Assembly: GCA_028820935.1 (NCBI GenBank)
Contig: JAPPHZ010000026.1
Coordinates: 1 to 64,000 of the forward strand
Length of the DNA: 64,000 nt
Source: a bacterium
Lineage (GTDB): Bacteria > Actinomycetota > Acidimicrobiia > Spongiisociales > Spongiisociaceae
Direction: 5' to 3'
Of this stretch, positions 56,838 to 64,000 are shown piece by piece. Both the position numbers and the translations under genes were made by a program. The number at the start of each line of letters is the position of its first letter. The stretch's first letter is position 1. Under the pieces are notes generated by a model that was given only the letters and a program-made list of their open reading frames with translations, did no database searches and was not told the origin of the DNA.

Positions 56838-56911
56838 GGGGCTGTAGCTCAGTTCGGCAGAGCACCTCGTTCGCAACGAGGGGGTCAGGGGTTCAAATCC
56901 CCTCAGCTCCA
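56838..56911 (+). tRNA. tRNA-Ala (anticodon CGC)
   Basis: The cloverleaf folds by hand: acceptor GGGGCTG with CAGCTCC, D-arm GCTC/GAGC, anticodon stem CCTCG/CGAGG with loop TTCGCAA (anticodon CGC, reading GCG alanine codons), T-arm AGGGG/CCCCT with TTCAAAT loop, discriminator A. No genomic CCA (the sequence continues CCG). An integrase gene starts 200 bp downstream, so its 3' end is the probable attachment site. Confidence 0.93.
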
Positions 56912-57020
56912 CCGTAAGACTCCAGGAGATACCAGAAAGACCCCTGACCAGGTGTTTCACAGTCCCGAGCCTTCCAAGCGGCCCTCACGGTCCTAGCGGA
57001 TTTGGTGGCTATCCCGCTCA

Positions 57021-57086
57021 AAAGTGACACTTGGAGTGACACTGACTAGAGTTGTCATGACCGGATCGCGGCCTCGGTGTCACTTT
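57021..57086. promoter_or_regulatory. Repeated sites upstream of the integrase gene
   Basis: AAAGTGACAC (57021-57030) is mirrored exactly by GTGTCACTTT (57077-57086), with a third partial copy AGTGACAC at 57035-57042 in the direct orientation. They lie between the tRNA end and the integrase start. Integrase arm-type binding sites or an operator for the AlpA-like protein both fit. Confidence 0.5.
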
Positions 57087-57114
57087 CCGGCAACGGCTAA
57101 AAGGGAAAGGCAAC

Positions 57115-58275
57115 ATGACCACCAGGTCGAGGAAAGGCGCTCCGCTCACTGCCGCGTTCGTGAAGGCGGTCCAGCGGCCGGGAGCATACGGTGACGGCTA
57201 CGGCGGGGGCGGGCTGGTACTCCGGGTGAAGCGGTCGAAGTACGGGCTGATCTCGAAGAATTGGGTTCAGCGAGTTCGTATCGGAGGGGTGGCTACCAAT
57301 ATCGGGATCGGAAGCTACCCGGCCACCAGTTTGCGGGAAGCTCGGGTGGCTGTCGAGCGCAACAATGGCGAGATCAAGGCGGGGCGTGATCCGCGATCCG
57401 CGAGCGGTGTAACTCTTGCGGAGGTCACCGAGGCCGTGATCGCCTTGCATCGTCCGACTTGGCGTAACGGTAAGACCGAGAGGCAATGGCGGTCCGCGTT
57501 CACAACTCATGTCTACCCACAGCTTGGGGATAGGGCTGTGGGGGTGATCACGACCGGTGATCTGGTGCGGGTGGTCGGGCCTCTGGTTCATTCCAAGCCG
57601 GCCACCTCTGATCTTCTGAGGATGCGGCTGGGCATGGTGTTCGAGTGGGCGAAGGCCGAGGGGCTGAGGGCTGATAATCCGGCCGGATCGGCGTTGGCGG
57701 CGGTACTTCCTCGACCCAAGGCGCGCACCACTCATCACCGAGCACTCCCGCACCGGGAACTGGCCGCGGCGCTTGCCAAGGTTGAGGCATCGAGGGCGGC
57801 GGTGGCTACCAAGCTGGCAGCTCGGTTCTTGGCTCTGACGGCTACAAGAACGTCCGAGGTCCGGTTGGCGGCGTGGTCGGAGATCGAGGGCGATACGTGG
57901 ACGATTCCCGGCGAGCGGATGAAGTCAGGCCGCGAGCATCGGGTACCGCTCTCTGAGGCCGCGCTGGACGTGCTGGCAGAGGCTCGAGAGCGGTGGGGCG
58001 GTAGCGGCCTTGTGTTCGTGGGACGTGGTGGGCAACCTCTCGGTCACGCCAGCATTGGGACGCTGTTCAGTCGCCTTGAGTTGGGTACCTCTCCGCACGG
58101 GATGAGGTCGAGCTTCCGTAACTGGTGCTCGGAGACCGGGGTGGATCGACAGGTGGCTGAGCGGGCGCTTGCTCATCAGGTCAGGAGCGCTACCGAGGCG
58201 GCATATAACCGCACTGACCTGTTCGAGCGGCGGCGCGAGGTCATGGAACGCTGGGGCGAGTACCTGGCTGGCTGA
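57115..58275 (+). CDS. Tyrosine integrase of the tRNA-Ala element
   Basis: The 386-residue tyrosine recombinase has an N-terminal arm-binding domain (about 1-95, with GGLVLRVKRS and IGIGSYPATSLREARV), a core-binding SAM-like domain (about 98-190) and a catalytic domain with R245 (TATRTSE), H328 and R331 (HGMRSSF), H354 and the nucleophile Y364. All five residues are present, so it should be active. It lies 200 bp past tRNA-Ala, the usual distance for tRNA-targeted elements. Confidence 0.94.
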   Translation: MTTRSRKGAPLTAAFVKAVQRPGAYGDGYGGGGLVLRVKRSKYGLISKNWVQRVRIGGVATNIGIGSYPATSLREARVAVERNNGEIKAGRDPRSASGVTLAEVTEAVIALHRPTWRNGKTERQWRSAFTTHVYPQLGDRAVGVITTGDLVRVVGPLVHSKPATSDLLRMRLGMVFEWAKAEGLRADNPAGSALAAVLPRPKARTTHHRALPHRELAAALAKVEASRAAVATKLAARFLALTATRTSEVRLAAWSEIEGDTWTIPGERMKSGREHRVPLSEAALDVLAEARERWGGSGLVFVGRGGQPLGHASIGTLFSRLELGTSPHGMRSSFRNWCSETGVDRQVAERALAHQVRSATEAAYNRTDLFERRREVMERWGEYLAG

Positions 58276-58297
58276 GCGGACTCTACGGACCACAAGG

Positions 58298-58326
58298 GAA
58301 TCCCCGGGCCAATTGCCCGGGGATTC
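58298..58326 (+). terminator. Hairpin terminator after the integrase gene
   Basis: GAATCCCCGGGC (58298-58309) pairs perfectly with GCCCGGGGATTC (58315-58326) around a CAATT loop, 22 bp after the integrase stop. The tail TCCGTCTC is only weakly T-rich. It should separate integrase transcription from the downstream genes. Confidence 0.75.
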
Positions 58327-58357
58327 TCCGTCTCAGGGGTGTATAGGTAGGTAGGCA

Positions 58358-58591
58358 GTGGAAAGGACGCTGAGAATGAGCCGAGAGTCGCTGAGGCAGG
58401 TGGAGGCCAAAGTCAAAGCCGGAGACGACAGGAAGGTCGCCATGCTGTATGTTGCAATCGACTGCGCGGCGGCCGGTGGAGATCGTCTGCGGCGTGCCGA
58501 GGTTGATACCGAGTGGGCGCAGCGCTACCTGAAGGAAGCGGAGCGCCAGCTTCGAGATGCGCTTGATCTGGTGTCCAGGTTGTGCCGGTGA
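58358..58591 (+). CDS. Small helical protein of the element, unknown function
   Basis: The 77-residue protein starts at GTG 58358, or ATG 58376 (MSRESLRQVEAKVKAG). It is charged and helical (EWAQRYLKEAERQLRDALDLV). It overlaps the AlpA-like gene by 10 bp, so the two are probably co-translated. No family recognised. Confidence 0.5.
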   Translation: MERTLRMSRESLRQVEAKVKAGDDRKVAMLYVAIDCAAAGGDRLRRAEVDTEWAQRYLKEAERQLRDALDLVSRLCR

Positions 58592-58776
58592 AGCGGATAC
58601 TGCGGATGGCTGATCTGGTCGAGATGCTGGGTATACCCAAGACCAGCCTACGGCGGCTGGTCGATGCGGGTTCGTTCCCCCAGCCGGTGAGGCTGGGGCC
58701 GCGGTTGATCGGGTGGCGGGCCTCCGAGGTCGAGGAATGGTTGGAGTCTCGGGAGCGGGTAGCGGTGCGGCCATGA
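58582..58776 (+). CDS. AlpA/excisionase-type HTH protein
   Basis: The 64-residue protein has KRILRMADLVEMLGIPKTSLRRLVDAGSFPQPVRLG followed by IGWRASEVEEWLESRE. This is the MerR-like winged helix of AlpA and phage excisionases, common in P4-like elements and phage-inducible islands. It could act as an excision directionality factor or transcription activator for the element. Confidence 0.85.
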   Translation: MPVKRILRMADLVEMLGIPKTSLRRLVDAGSFPQPVRLGPRLIGWRASEVEEWLESRERVAVRP

Positions 58777-59018
58777 TTCGACAGGATCGGCAGGTATCGG
58801 CACCCAGGGCGCTCGCTACGGCTCCGGATGCGTGCGGATTGCCTCCGAGGTCGGAAGGTGGGTGCGGGGGATGCCTCCCAGGTCGGAAGCGGTGGCTACG
58901 GGGCTCTGAGAGGCCGTTCCGCCTTCGAGCTACTATGACATGGTTGTCATGGCATGGTTCGGCTGGGTGAAGTCTTGGTCGGGTTGTGGCAAGGCACGTT
59001 GTGGCAAGGCGCAAGGGA

Positions 59019-59048
59019 GTGAGCCGGATTCTTCGGAGTCCGGCTCAC
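59019..59048. terminator. Stem-loop, 10-bp stem
   Basis: GTGAGCCGGA (59019-59028) pairs with TCCGGCTCAC (59039-59048) around a 10-base loop. It may be a terminator or RNA structure; the T-tract is weak. Confidence 0.5.
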
Positions 59049-59083
59049 TTCGCGCCAAGAAGTTTCGAGGTCTCGGGTGTATA

Positions 59084-59108
59084 GTTAGGGTGAGGTTGTC
59101 CCCCTAAC
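59084..59108. repeat. Inverted repeat GTTAGGG/CCCTAAC
   Basis: The 7-bp arms at 59084-59090 and 59102-59108 have an 11-base loop. This lies between two stronger hairpins; function unknown. Confidence 0.4.
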
Positions 59109-59133
59109 AATCTCGGAGCGGCCTAGGAAGTTA

Positions 59134-59161
59134 GAACCCCCGGTCACACTGCCGGGGGTTC
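59134..59161. terminator. Stem-loop GAACCCCCGG/CCGGGGGTTC
   Basis: A perfect 10-bp stem (59134-59143 with 59152-59161) with an 8-base loop, followed by TCCGCGTC. It is a good candidate rho-independent terminator for a short transcript from the tract. Confidence 0.6.
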
Positions 59162-59396
59162 TCCGCGTCCCGTGCTATGGTCTTGTCCGGGTGTCGGGAG
59201 TAGTGCCCCGGCAGGCAGACTTAGGGGACCTGCCCAGGCGATTGAGAAGTCTTCTCAGGAGCCTCCTTCTACCTCAGGCCGAGAGGGCTTGCATAGGGTC
59301 AGCCTATGCTCAAACCGACGGCTCACGGGGTAGGGGGGCAGGCTCTTGAGGAACGAGAGAGCCTGCAGCACTGGCCCGGGCTTATGGAGAATCGAT

Positions 59397-59572
59397 CAAT
59401 TCCCCAGTTCTATCCTGATTCTCAGGATAGGCAGAACAGGGGGGATCAAGGGGCCCGAGGATCAAACGCCGGAACTGGCGGAGAAACTGAGGGCAATTCC
59501 CCAGTTCTATCCTGAGGATGAATCGCACCTAATACCGATTCGAGAATCGCTATAACCTGCGTTCTATCCGGA
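59397..59572. repeat. Exact 22-bp direct repeats with a hairpin and a third partial copy
   Basis: A 22-bp sequence, CAATTCCCCAGTTC then TATCCTGA, occurs at 59397-59418 and exactly again at 59494-59515 (97-bp period). A third, shorter copy GTTCTATCCGGA is at 59561-59572. The first copy leads into a perfect 9-bp stem-loop (59410-59430: CTATCCTGA, TTC loop, TCAGGATAG). Both full copies encode IPQFYP, but in different frames, which argues for DNA or RNA function. Confidence 0.6.
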
Positions 59573-59600
59573 ACCGCACCGGCACTAGTCTTGATCCCGA

Positions 59601-60086
59601 ATGGATGAAGACCTGAGCCTGAGTGATCAGATAGCCGAGGTCGTCCGCAACATCAAGGCTATCGAGGCGGCTTTGGACAGGCGCGCCAAGGCCCTGGAGT
59701 TGGCCGAGCGCGAGCTCGAAGAACGCGAGAACGACTTGATCACGACTACTCGCGGCTTGGAGCGGTGGATGGCTCAGGCGATCAAGCGCAAGAACCCCTG
59801 CCCGGATTGTGGAGAGGTCGGCGGCCAGCGCATCAACGACAGGTGCAAGCGGTGTTATCAGCGCAGCTACGCCGCGAAGAAACGCGCCGAGAAAAAGAAA
59901 AAGCCCAAGACGGAACCTGTCAAGAAAAAGCCCAAGACGACACCGCAAGCTCAGAACGGCCGGAGCCAGAACCTACCTAGTCCGCGGGAGCGGGAGCGGT
60001 TGGCTGCTATGCGTACCCGTGAGCTAATAGCGGCGGGTAAAGACCGGGGGACTCGGCGGGCCGAGGGCATGGTGGACAATCGTTAG
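59601..60086 (+). CDS. Coiled-coil and zinc-ribbon protein of the element
   Basis: The 161-residue protein has an N-terminal coiled coil (about 10-55: VRNIKAIEAALDRRAKALELAERELEERE split across heptads), then a zinc ribbon with CPDCGEVGG near residue 73 and CKRCYQRSY near 90, then a Lys-rich basic tail (AEKKKKPKTEPVKKKPKT). This looks like a nucleic-acid-binding protein. It could be a regulator or small-terminase-like factor; nothing decides this. Confidence 0.65.
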   Translation: MDEDLSLSDQIAEVVRNIKAIEAALDRRAKALELAERELEERENDLITTTRGLERWMAQAIKRKNPCPDCGEVGGQRINDRCKRCYQRSYAAKKRAEKKKKPKTEPVKKKPKTTPQAQNGRSQNLPSPRERERLAAMRTRELIAAGKDRGTRRAEGMVDNR

Positions 60087-60373
60087 TCTGGTGGGTGTTG
60101 GTCAAGGGAGCGGCACTACATGAGCAGTTGATGCCTGGGTAGGTACTGATGCCGAGGCGCTTAGGTGCCGCTCTGCTTGCGGTCGGTGGTAAAGTGGTGG
60201 TGCGTACCTGTCTAGGCACATTCAGATACGCCTCCAGCCTGGCCGGATGATTCGTGATTGAACTCCTCGGCTCATCCGGCCCGGCCTCCTGTTTTTCTGC
60301 GCAATAAGTTGTGTTATTTCAATTATTAACCGGCGGCTATTCTGGTGGCTACATGGAGAGGGAGGCGGGGTCA
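60087..60373. other. Gap before the small acidic protein gene
   Basis: This stretch holds one terminator (60241-60296) and an AT-rich segment (about 60295-60335, GTTATTTCAATTATTAAC), which is notably less GC-rich than the surroundings and likely carries the promoter for the downstream genes. Confidence 0.4.
60241..60296 (+). terminator. Hairpin followed by a T-run
   Basis: GGCCGGATGA (60241-60250) pairs with TCATCCGGCC (60272-60281) around a 21-base loop; CGGCCTCCTGTTTTT follows. A terminator is likely, given the T-run at 60292-60296. Confidence 0.6.
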
Positions 60374-60586
60374 ATGGGTAAGTTCGAGGTGTTGGACGGT
60401 GGCGGCGATAGCCCGCCCGAGCCAGAAGCGGCCGAGTTCGTGATGGATGGCGATTGCCTTGTGGGTGTGCTGATCCCCCATGATGAAGCCGGTTGGATGG
60501 TGCTTGCTCCTGTCGGCCATAGTCTTGGCAAGGGAGAGGGCCGGGCTCGGCTCACCGAGTTGCGGAAGCGTTTTCTGGCCGGGTGA
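60374..60586 (+). CDS. Small acidic protein of the element, unknown function
   Basis: The product is about 70 residues from ATG 60374, preceded by GGAGGCGGGG at a good distance; ATG 60353 would add seven residues. The sequence has FEVLDGGGDSPPEPEAAEFVMDG, then LVGVLIPHDEAGWMVLAPVGH. No family recognised. It lies 70 bp before the terminase gene. Confidence 0.55.
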   Translation: MGKFEVLDGGGDSPPEPEAAEFVMDGDCLVGVLIPHDEAGWMVLAPVGHSLGKGEGRARLTELRKRFLAG

Positions 60587-60656
60587 TGATGGCACCGGCG
60601 GAAGGCAAAATCTAGGGGGGAGTCGTGTGGGGGAGTGACGGACTCCATGAAGGGCG

Positions 60657-62144
60657 ATGACGTTACGGCGTGAGCTTCTGTCATATCTTGGCGGCCTGGC
60701 GGTCTCTCAGGGCCGGTTCACGGGTGAGCCTCTCCAGGTCTTCCCGTGGGAGCGGCGCTTCGTGGGTGGTCTGTTGCGGCCGGGCGTTTTGTCGGCGGCG
60801 CTGACGGTGGCGAGAGGCAACGGCAAGACAACGATTCTCTCCGGCATTGCCTCGGCTACGTTGGACGGCCCGCTAGTGGTGCCGAGAGGCGAGACGGTCA
60901 TTGTTGCTTCCAGCTTCGAGCAGGCCCGGATCGCGTTCGAGCACGTCTTGGCCTTCATGGGTGATCAGCTCCGGGACAAGCGGCGGTGGAAGGTGTGGGA
61001 CACCGCCCAGCAGGCTCGGATCGAAGACCGCCGGACGGGTGCGCGGGTGCGGTGTATCGGGTCCGATCCGCGCCGGGCTCACGGCCTCGCTCCGACTCTG
61101 GTTCTGGCCGACGAACCCGCCCAGTGGCCTCCCGCGACGGGCGAGCGGATGGTGGCGGCTCTCCGCACCGCGGCGGGCAAGCAACCGCTATCGAGGTTCG
61201 TGGCGCTTGGCACCAAGCCGGACGATCCCGAGCACTGGTTCGCCCGGTTCCTAGATGGTGGGGCCGATTACGTCCAGGTGCATGCCGCCCGCAGAACAGA
61301 CCCACCCGGCTGGAAGCGGACGTGGCAGAAGGCCAATCCGAGCCTGCGTTACCTCCCAGACCTGGAGGCGGCGATACGGGCCGAGTACCGGGCGGCGCTT
61401 CGCGATCCGGCGCTCATGGCGAGCTTCGAGGCGTTGCGCTTGAACTGGGGAACGCCGGACACCGCCGCCGAGGTGCTGGTGAGTGCCGACCTATGGCGCC
61501 AGATCGAGGGAGACGCCGAGATGGCGGGCCCGTGTGTGTGGGGCGTTGACCTGGGCTCCTCCGAGGCTCAGTCGGCGGTTGCGGCGTACTGGCCGCGCAC
61601 CGGGGCGCTGGCGGTGGTAGCGGCCTTCCCGACTGTCCCGAGCCTGGAGGAGAGAGGGCGGCGTGACGGCGTGGGCGGTCTCTACCGCCAGTGCTGGCGG
61701 GAAGGTACGTTGCTGACCTTGGGGCGGCAGAGCTCCGACGTGGGGGCCCTGGTGGCTGAGGCCCTGCGGCGCTTCGGTCGGCCTCGGGTGGTGGTGGCGG
61801 ATCGGTGGCGGCGTGTTCAGCTCCTGGAGGCGTTGGAAGATGCCAAGGTACCGCGGGCCGAGGTGGTTACTCGCGGGATGGGCTTCAAGGACGGCGGGGA
61901 AGACGTCTCCCGGTTCGTGAGGGCCTGCGCTGACGGTCAGGTGGTGCCGTCACGGTCGCTTCTGATGCGGTCTGCCCTGTCGGTTGCCCGTACCCAGACG
62001 GATGCGGCGGGGAACCGGAAGATGACCAAGGCCAAGCGGCGGGCCCGTGACGATTGCGCGGTGGCGGCGGTGCTGGCGGTGGCAGAAGGGCGGCGGCGTG
62101 CGGCGGTGGCAGAGCCGCGGCCTCTGAGGTCGGCCGTTGTCTAG
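60657..62144 (+). CDS. Phage terminase large subunit
   Basis: The 495-residue protein has an ATPase domain with a Walker A-like ARGNGKTT (residues 52-59), Walker B LVLADE (148-153) and ALGTKPDDPEHWF as the coupling segment. The nuclease domain has acidic residues at VWGVDLGSSEAQSAVAAYW near 290, VVVADRWRR near 380 and DDCAVAAVLAVAEG near the end. It packages DNA through a portal. No small subunit is recognised upstream. The HNH gene overlaps its end. Confidence 0.88.
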   Translation: MTLRRELLSYLGGLAVSQGRFTGEPLQVFPWERRFVGGLLRPGVLSAALTVARGNGKTTILSGIASATLDGPLVVPRGETVIVASSFEQARIAFEHVLAFMGDQLRDKRRWKVWDTAQQARIEDRRTGARVRCIGSDPRRAHGLAPTLVLADEPAQWPPATGERMVAALRTAAGKQPLSRFVALGTKPDDPEHWFARFLDGGADYVQVHAARRTDPPGWKRTWQKANPSLRYLPDLEAAIRAEYRAALRDPALMASFEALRLNWGTPDTAAEVLVSADLWRQIEGDAEMAGPCVWGVDLGSSEAQSAVAAYWPRTGALAVVAAFPTVPSLEERGRRDGVGGLYRQCWREGTLLTLGRQSSDVGALVAEALRRFGRPRVVVADRWRRVQLLEALEDAKVPRAEVVTRGMGFKDGGEDVSRFVRACADGQVVPSRSLLMRSALSVARTQTDAAGNRKMTKAKRRARDDCAVAAVLAVAEGRRRAAVAEPRPLRSAVV

Positions 62145-62427
62145 GTCGCCGTCCGGGAGGTTGACCAAGACCCGGAGATGGCGGCGGTTGCGGCGCTTGG
62201 TGCTGGGTGAGGCCGGTTGGCGGTGTGAGGCGTGCGGGCGGTGGGCGAACGAAGTTGACCATATCCAACCCATCGGGGCCGGTGGCGAGCGGTGGGAGCG
62301 GGATAACCTTCAGGCGCTTTGCCGGTCGTGTCACATCGAAAAGACCCGAAAAGAGAACCGCAAAGCGTTATCCGCAGAGGCCGAAGCGTGGCGCGAGCTC
62401 GTGTCAGAACTCATGCCGAAAAAATAA
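62137..62427 (+). CDS. HNH endonuclease of the element
   Basis: The 96-residue HNH protein has C-x2-C (CEACGRWANEVDHIQPIGAG), the conserved N in ERWERDNLQALCRSCHIEKTR and a second CxxC. Small HNH proteins next to terminases support DNA cutting at cos ends. The start is TTG 62137 (8 bp inside the terminase gene) or a later alternative. Confidence 0.9.
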   Translation: MSRSPSGRLTKTRRWRRLRRLVLGEAGWRCEACGRWANEVDHIQPIGAGGERWERDNLQALCRSCHIEKTRKENRKALSAEAEAWRELVSELMPKK

Positions 62428-62543
62428 GGCCACAATTACTTACATTCTGTCATCATTTAAGAACGGACAAATAGGAGAAACTCATGATATCTTCTGTCGA
62501 TCAACTATGATCGGGTTGGATATATGACGGGAGGGAGTGGATT

Positions 62544-63782
62544 ATGACCCACCGGCAACGCCTCGAATTGGAGGCTTCGGAGTGTCGGCAGAAGATTCGG
62601 GAACTACTTGATGCCGGGGAGTTGTCGGATGAGCAGCGGCGGGAGTTGCAGACTCTCAGCACCCGTGCCCAGGAGATCGAACCGGAGTTGAGAGCGGCCA
62701 TCATCGCAGAGCCCGACCCGGTTACCGCACCCGCATCACCGAGCACTGAGGATCGGGAACGGCTCGAACTTCGGTCAAGGGCTTCTGTCGGTCGCTACCT
62801 TCTGGCCGCGATGCGCGGTCGGTCTGTGGACGGTGCCGAGCGGGAACTGGCCGAGGAGAACGGTCTGGATGACGGCCAGATACCTCTTGAGATGTGGGAG
62901 CCCGTAGAGACCCGGGCGGACGTGGTTACGGACGCGCCGGACACGGTGGGCGTGAACCTGGATCGCCTTCGCCCGGCCATCTTCGCTCCTTCGATTCTTC
63001 CCCGCCTCGGTGTGGAGATGCCGCGGGTCAAGACGGGAACCTATGCCTCGGGAACGATCACAACTTCGCTCACGGCCGGGGCGGAGGCAAGGGGCGGTGA
63101 GGCCGACGCGACCGAGGCTCAGTTCACGGTCACCTCGGTGACGCCCAAGCGGATCAGCGCACGGTTGGCTATCGCAATCGAAGACGTTGCCGCGGTCGGT
63201 CAAGCCAACTTCGAGTCGGTGCTTCGCGAAAACCTGAGCCTGGTGCTCTCCGATGAGTTGGACCGCCAGGGCCTGGTCGGCGCGGGTGCCAATAACGATC
63301 TGGTGGGCATCATTCAGCGGCTCACCGACGTTGCCGATCCGGGGGAGGCTGCCAACTTTGATGCCTTCGTGAGCGTGTTCGCGGGCTCGGTTGATGGCCT
63401 GTGGGCGTCAACTGTCAAGGATTTGGTGGCGGTTGTCGGGCCCGCAACCTATCAACGAAGCGCGAAGACCTTCCGAGACATAGATAACACCGACCTGGGC
63501 TCGATAGCGTTCAGCGACTACGCCTTGGCGCGTTACGGCGGTTGGTGGACGAACAAGCGGATGCCCGAGCCTGTTTCCACCGTCCAGAAGGGGATCATGC
63601 ACCGGCGGGGCAGGTCGGGAATGAGAACGGCGGTGTTGCCGCATTGGAACATGATCTCGATTGACGATATCTACACCGGATCGGCCAAGGGCGAGCGGTA
63701 CTTCACGATGCACGTTCTGTGCGGAGACGTGATCCTGGTTCAGCCCGGGGCCTATTCGGAGTTTCGTATCAAGGTCTCCTGA
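62544..63782 (+). CDS. HK97-fold major capsid protein
   Basis: The 412-residue protein has an N-terminal delta-type coiled coil (about 1-60: RQRLELEASECRQKIRELLD) that acts as internal scaffold, followed by a linker and the HK97 fold (about 130-412: PSILPRLGVEMPRVKTG, ISARLAIAIEDVAAVGQ, DRQGLVGAGANNDLVG). A prohead protease usually cleaves the delta domain; no separate protease gene is visible before it. A GGAGGGAG ribosome site precedes ATG 62544 and the upstream 116 bp are AT-rich. Confidence 0.88.
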   Translation: MTHRQRLELEASECRQKIRELLDAGELSDEQRRELQTLSTRAQEIEPELRAAIIAEPDPVTAPASPSTEDRERLELRSRASVGRYLLAAMRGRSVDGAERELAEENGLDDGQIPLEMWEPVETRADVVTDAPDTVGVNLDRLRPAIFAPSILPRLGVEMPRVKTGTYASGTITTSLTAGAEARGGEADATEAQFTVTSVTPKRISARLAIAIEDVAAVGQANFESVLRENLSLVLSDELDRQGLVGAGANNDLVGIIQRLTDVADPGEAANFDAFVSVFAGSVDGLWASTVKDLVAVVGPATYQRSAKTFRDIDNTDLGSIAFSDYALARYGGWWTNKRMPEPVSTVQKGIMHRRGRSGMRTAVLPHWNMISIDDIYTGSAKGERYFTMHVLCGDVILVQPGAYSEFRIKVS

Positions 63783-63789
63783 TCGGGAT

Positions 63790-64000
63790 ATGCCCACCGT
63801 GTCCAGTGTCCGGGTCTCCGATGTAGCCGTGGACGTGGGCACGGGCCTTCCCACCGGTTGTTACGTCGGCCAGGTACGGTCGGTGGACGTGGCGGTGCAG
63901 GCCCTGGTCTCCTACGGCTCAATCCCTCCCGCCGAGATCGAGGATTGGTTCGTGCTCTCCTACGGGGCCACCTTCGAGTTCCGGGCCGGTTCGGGTGCCG
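63790..64000 (+). CDS. Unknown element gene (partial, cut by window edge)
   Basis: ATG 63790 follows the capsid gene by 7 bp; the frame stays open for 70 codons to the edge. The visible part (VSSVRVSDVAVDVGTGLPTG, then VVSYGSIP-like text and EDWFVLSYGATFEFRAG) has beta-rich character and no recognised motif. A position after the capsid suggests a head-tail or structural gene. Confidence 0.6.
   Translation, partial: MPTVSSVRVSDVAVDVGTGLPTGCYVGQVRSVDVAVQALVSYGSIPPAEIEDWFVLSYGATFEFRAGSGA

Follow-up and report, generated by a model that had tools for sequence, protein, structure and literature searches.

The window analysed here, 64,000 nucleotides corresponding to C26 (JAPPHZ010000026.1):1-64000 of an Acidimicrobiia MAG (51 contigs, 97% complete), runs at its right end into what is, judging from gene content and order, very probably an integrated and complete phage satellite that forms its own capsids and belongs to a separate, cross-phylum lineage. 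Without an IS that interrupts it, the element measures 10,380 bp between 38-bp tRNA-Ala att repeats. It carries an integrase with direct-repeat att sites, an AlpA-type regulator, a packaging set (TerL and HNH) and a head set (capsid, maturation protease, portal and connectors). Pfam and PHROG scans of the 10.38 kb, which covered everything but the interior of the IS that the assembly has collapsed, found no tail or lysis gene. As the element lacks tail genes but has its own genes for building and filling heads, it most likely spreads on the borrowed tails of other viruses, which would extend head-building, tail-borrowing satellites to the Acidimicrobiia.

Boundaries and gene content

C26 extends to position 67066, about 3 kb beyond the window and in the same numbering (Table 1). 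The first-pass annotation had placed the tRNA-Ala, integrase, AlpA-like protein, TerL, HNH and capsid correctly, as ARAGORN, Pfam and PHROG confirm. It was also right that neither portal nor protease stands between TerL and capsid, but both are present 0.1-2.4 kb past the window on C26. Its reason for proposing a capsid-encoding, tail-borrowing satellite, the absence of these two genes, was therefore wrong, since both follow the capsid. The proposal itself holds on other grounds: the 10.38-kb element is complete, has a full head and packaging set without tail or lysis genes, and shows a head order like that of the capsid-forming satellites known as cf-PICIs.

Table 1. Features of the element and its integration site; coordinates without prefix lie wholly within the window
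Feature	Position	Strand	Evidence
tRNA-Ala (CGC), integration target; 3' end within attL	56838..56913	+	ARAGORN
attL core, 38 bp, GGGGTCAGGGGTTCAAATCCCCTCAGCTCCACCGTAAG; attR is an identical copy at G000:C38:308-345	56881..56918	+	
Two TGACAC repeats, 12 bp apart, near attL	57025..57042	+	
Tyrosine integrase (Arm-DNA-bind_3, Phage_int_M, Phage_integrase)	57115..58275	+	Pfam E 8e-18 (Arm-DNA-bind_3)
71-aa protein, no assigned function	58376..58591	+	
AlpA-like regulator/excisionase	58582..58776	+	PF05930 E 1.4e-15
161-aa protein, coiled-coil-like and zinc-finger-like stretches	59601..60086	+	Pfam/PHROG: no confident family
70-aa protein, no assigned function, ahead of TerL	60374..60586	+	
TerL	60657..62144	+	PF20441 2e-7, PF03354 1e-5, phrog_9 E 4e-57
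HNH endonuclease	62137..62427	+	phrog_144 2e-22
HK97-fold major capsid protein, N-terminal helical (delta/scaffold-like) domain	62544..63782	+	PF05065 6e-6
96-aa protein, no assigned function; window end cuts gene	C26:63790-64080	+	
S78 prohead protease	C26:64084-64992	+	PF04586 E 6e-9
Adaptor-like gene	C26:64983-65321	+	
Portal	C26:65321-66376	+	phrog_12 E 0.004; AlphaFold model
Putative stopper, 116 aa	C26:66373-66723	+	homology of position
Winged-helix gene, IS-split	C26:66789-67012	-	

The right end of the element was reached across a multicopy IS, of which C26:67013-67066 is one end. These last 54 bp of C26 recur at eight other contig edges (98-100% identity), and C38:1-55 is their imperfect inverted partner, giving 55-bp imperfect inverted repeats. 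The element resumes at C38:56, and 250 bp or so further on the 38-bp copy of the tRNA-Ala 3' end constitutes attR. A 4-bp target duplication, TCGA, is common to the C26 and C38 IS ends and fits this pair alone; for 6/9 of the IS left ends, some right end carries the same 4 duplicated bp (chance about 0.35; read by eye). Once the IS and one copy of TCGA are taken out, the winged-helix gene reads as one open frame. Three observations lead us to join C26 to C38: the shared duplication, the restored frame, and the vacant site seen in G005 and G008, two genomes of the same genus. In both, the tRNA-Ala site is uninterrupted and the left flank adjoins the dehydrogenase gene of the C38 right flank, which is independent evidence that C26 and C38 border one locus. 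The first-pass annotation had looked to the sequence past 64 kb and to a right att site for a decision, and had held that a 35-50 kb prophage with full tail and lysis modules would speak against a satellite; attR is there, no tail or lysis module precedes it, and the element ends at 10.38 kb. The TGACAC pair near attL recurs with identical spacing near attR (C38:244 and 256), so placed that the pairs are candidate integrase arm sites.

Two further observations concern the surroundings. A HicB-like/HicA toxin-antitoxin pair (G000:C38:389-895) lies between attR and the dehydrogenase gene and is probably a separate insertion, since G005 and G008 lack it at their empty site. The multicopy IS interrupts about 19 contig ends of the MAG.

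Within the element, the order is TerL-HNH-capsid-96-aa protein-protease-adaptor-portal-stopper. The capsid match to PF05065 exceeds the curated cut-off, and its AF2 model (pLDDT 71.6) finds PDB capsids with Foldseek at E 1e-12, its matches being HK97-fold capsids that include the cf-PICI EcCI2 capsid 9gyi and the capsid of a gene transfer agent (GTA). For the portal, the sequence match to phrog_12 is weak, but solved portals are found with its AlphaFold model (pLDDT 70.8), at 1.9e-8 for GTA and 8.5e-8 for HK97. About five small proteins are without assigned function. No TerS was matched by Pfam or PHROG in the element's ORFs, bar an HNH-domain overlap, and a small, divergent TerS can evade such profiles; the 161-aa protein is a possible but unproven candidate for a small terminase or replication factor. 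Neither was a primase or other replication gene recognisable in this copy by Pfam and PHROG, so that replication would need host or helper enzymes or an uncharacterised protein. PADLOC found no defence gene. Most close family members have a long protease of about 300 aa (L009:9084-9992 and relatives), and its extra C-terminal half, with a Cys-rich motif of its own, CTCQGGGC, is missing in L029.

Relatives across phyla

A second complete copy of about 10.4 kb is present in G005 (JAJEIM010000009.1), an Acidimicrobiia genome of the same genus, between dop and pup, a site that is empty in nine other genus members. MAGs of Gemmatimonadota, Alphaproteobacteria and Acidobacteriota contain homologous elements of about 10 kb; in collection scans, capsid relatives of 49-60% identity came from the first two groups and from Vicinamibacterales MAGs, and additional relatives from viral contigs. 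Across very similar plans in four phyla, head and packaging proteins are 60-69% identical, whereas the capsids of the window's element and of G005 share only 31-32% within one genus. This pattern is what would be expected if satellites cross phyla by way of many helper tails, and it bears on the limits of satellite host range.

Four relatives are complete copies of 9.7-10.7 kb between att repeats that match a tRNA end, at tRNA-SeC, -Lys, -Ser and -Lys. Others are circular, with terminal overlaps and the head set; they measure 9.4-10.4 kb, except that one with a Tn3-like transposon reaches 13.6 kb. Two of the circular relatives, L029 and L075, are without an integrase. The 13.6-kb circle, an IMG isolate record, carries its Tn3-like transposase and resolvase at L028:10010-13631. 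Primase- or AAA_25-type genes occur in relatives, with a replication module in L028, L029, L031, L032 and L035. A sister group of 179 loci has the same plan, and among the sister groups several relatives come from IMG isolate records. No tail module was found among the relatives' non-core proteins that were scanned, and head-tail connectors recur there; the single match of such a kind is a lone 162-aa protein of a Rhodospirillaceae relative (L034:3107-3592), which resembles PHROG tail fibre and endolysin families. At the sensitivity of tblastn, no known phage carries the capsid or portal of the window's element. The genes are intact and purifying selection acts on them: dN/dS against relatives is about 0.2-0.36, and about 0.26-0.35 for the head and packaging genes, rough values since dS is high.

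Gene order and descent compared with cf-PICIs and phages

cf-PICIs were described by Alqurainy et al. 2023, as summarised in PMC10690885, and their definition, together with mention of three capsid radiations, is found in PMC11389934 and PMC10690885. The definition as quoted in PMC10690885 does not include a replication module of their own, which is common in the reference loci seen here. These loci (L206, L217, L276) were found via the EcCI2 capsid 9gyi, itself reached through a made-up coiled-coil probe peptide; the scan used the matched 9gyi letters alone. Read from the loci, the enterobacterial order is int-alpA-primase-capsid-protease-portal-stopper-adaptor-HNH-TerS-TerL. The EDL933 thrW region was rejected as a cf-PICI reference, as it holds P2/P4 remnants. 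A 16.5-kb 'induced prophage', vB_KppS-Ant (LR881103.1), has the cf-PICI head order and one gene labelled 'tape measure'; it is probably a packaged cf-PICI.

The window's element shares with cf-PICIs its integrase, AlpA, capsid, protease, portal, connectors, HNH and TerL, the absence of tails and the capsid-protease-portal order. It differs in size (about 10.4 kb versus ~14-16 kb), in having TerL and HNH before the capsid rather than after the portal, in an adaptor that precedes rather than follows the portal, and in that cf-PICIs have TerS and primase, neither of which is recognisable in the window's copy. The capsid-protease-portal order is kept in 119/123 loci with all three genes, a count that describes the family and not all satellites, as loci were chosen by similarity; of the remaining four, one is probably a circular permutation and three are phage-like contigs. 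By contrast, the checked tailed phages that carry the full trio read portal-protease-capsid in 8/8 cases (HK97, Shpa, Rovert, Butters, phi-SsuHCJ3, phiC31, Klebsiella ST13-OXA48phi12.4 and Rhizobium RHph_X2_25). HK97-type siphophages such as HK97, phiC31 and Butters share with the element an HK97-fold capsid, S78 protease, HK97-type portal and TerL, but have these head genes in the opposite order and followed by tail genes, and the TerL of HK97 is only ~26% identical to the window's. The capsid-protease-portal order may be a quick sequence marker to tell head-building satellites from tailed prophages.

Descent from enterobacterial cf-PICIs is not supported by the trees. In the portal tree, the family of the window's element is one clade (support 100/98) adjoining the sister group, with enterobacterial cf-PICIs elsewhere; in the TerL tree, family and sister group stand together (97/100) and cf-PICIs lie among phages. 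The element is thus outside the EcCI2-type enterobacterial clade in both, while in function it is best read as cf-PICI-like by analogy. The two trees imply that head-only satellites of capsid-first order arose repeatedly or swapped genes with phages. Within the family, the window's TerL pairs with that of a Gemmatimonadota element (99/95) and its portal groups with the same element and L028 (96/89), whereas the G005 copy is not nearest in either tree, though from the same genus. The element is accordingly best read, from these comparisons, as belonging to a ~10-kb head-only lineage that appears to have moved between bacterial phyla. It may already be among the ~900 published cf-PICI elements. 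More tentatively, and with slightly less than even confidence, we propose a separate ~10-kb satellite radiation with an origin outside the known enterobacterial cf-PICIs. It would cross at least four phyla (Actinomycetota, Gemmatimonadota, Pseudomonadota and Acidobacteriota) with one conserved head and unrelated helper tails, perhaps within shared host-associated communities, and some members would be circular episomes. The MAG names of several relatives hint that their samples may come from marine sponges.

Other known systems resemble the element in part. The satellite plasmid cf-PISP TG54 of Vibrio crassostreae is a head-only episome, like the circular, integrase-less L029 and L075, but is reported in Vibrio alone and related to gammaproteobacterial cf-PICIs (PMC13230959), while the window's element is integrated. 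The Streptomyces phage satellites MulchRoom and MiniFlayer are likewise from Actinomycetota and have their own packaging and capsid genes, the tail of MulchRoom being inferred as helper-derived; set against the window's element by description, they differ in their linear genomes, ~1-kb terminal repeats, scaffolding protein and actinophage kin (PMC10690885). Charybdis elements (PMC12324425) were rejected as a match, being ~4.6 kb and without an HK97 capsid.

Alternative explanations and proposed life cycle

A decayed HK97-type prophage, immobile after losing its tail and lysis genes, would account for head genes of phage origin, for a regulator split by an IS and for the lack of a visible replication gene. 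We consider it improbable: the compact head-only plan recurs in the same order in more than 100 loci and in ~10-kb circular assemblies, the genes are intact and selected, capsid and portal are in no known phage by tblastn, and the capsid-first order is unlike that of all eight phages checked. Nor do tail and lysis modules follow downstream within a 30-50 kb element, as in a prophage. An autonomous, very small virus, in which a few uncharacterised genes give a minimal tail or tail-less entry, is very unlikely. Circular genomes of ~10 kb that encode the whole head set do exist and several proteins are without a known family, but these proteins are small and variable among relatives, neck and connector proteins are kept as if a tail must attach, and there is no lysis gene. 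A GTA packaging host DNA is hardly credible: the portal of the Rhodobacter GTA is the closest in PDB to a 14-sequence portal profile (6.6e-8) and its capsid is among the nearest folds, but the element is integrated and mobile, as its integrase, att repeats and empty sites and its relatives in other phyla show, whereas GTAs are inherited vertically as chromosomal clusters that include tail genes; the Rhodobacter GTA has such genes and is no mobile element with att sites.

For the capsid-forming satellite that we favour, the following cycle can be envisaged. Infection by a tailed helper phage would trigger AlpA-controlled excision and replication; the satellite would assemble a small head from its own capsid genes, and its own terminase would package its ~10-kb DNA. 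A helper tail would then be attached at the portal/stopper neck, and the satellite would leave the cell upon lysis by the helper. A helper prophage, which the first-pass annotation had suggested looking for, was sought in the same MAG with two families, PF04860 and PF10145, with 0 matches; helper phages need not be resident in a satellite's host.

This particular copy may be disabled, because the IS splits the winged-helix (HTH) gene, and decay of the window's single copy after IS insertion is possible. Two fragments related to the element's genes lie elsewhere. An integrase fragment related to the window's integrase, at a contig edge beside tRNA-Val (G000:C9:303-728), is possibly a second related element broken by assembly. 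In another genome of the same family, a related TerL fragment beside a transposase (G013:C249, L021:6376-7619) is a probable remnant.
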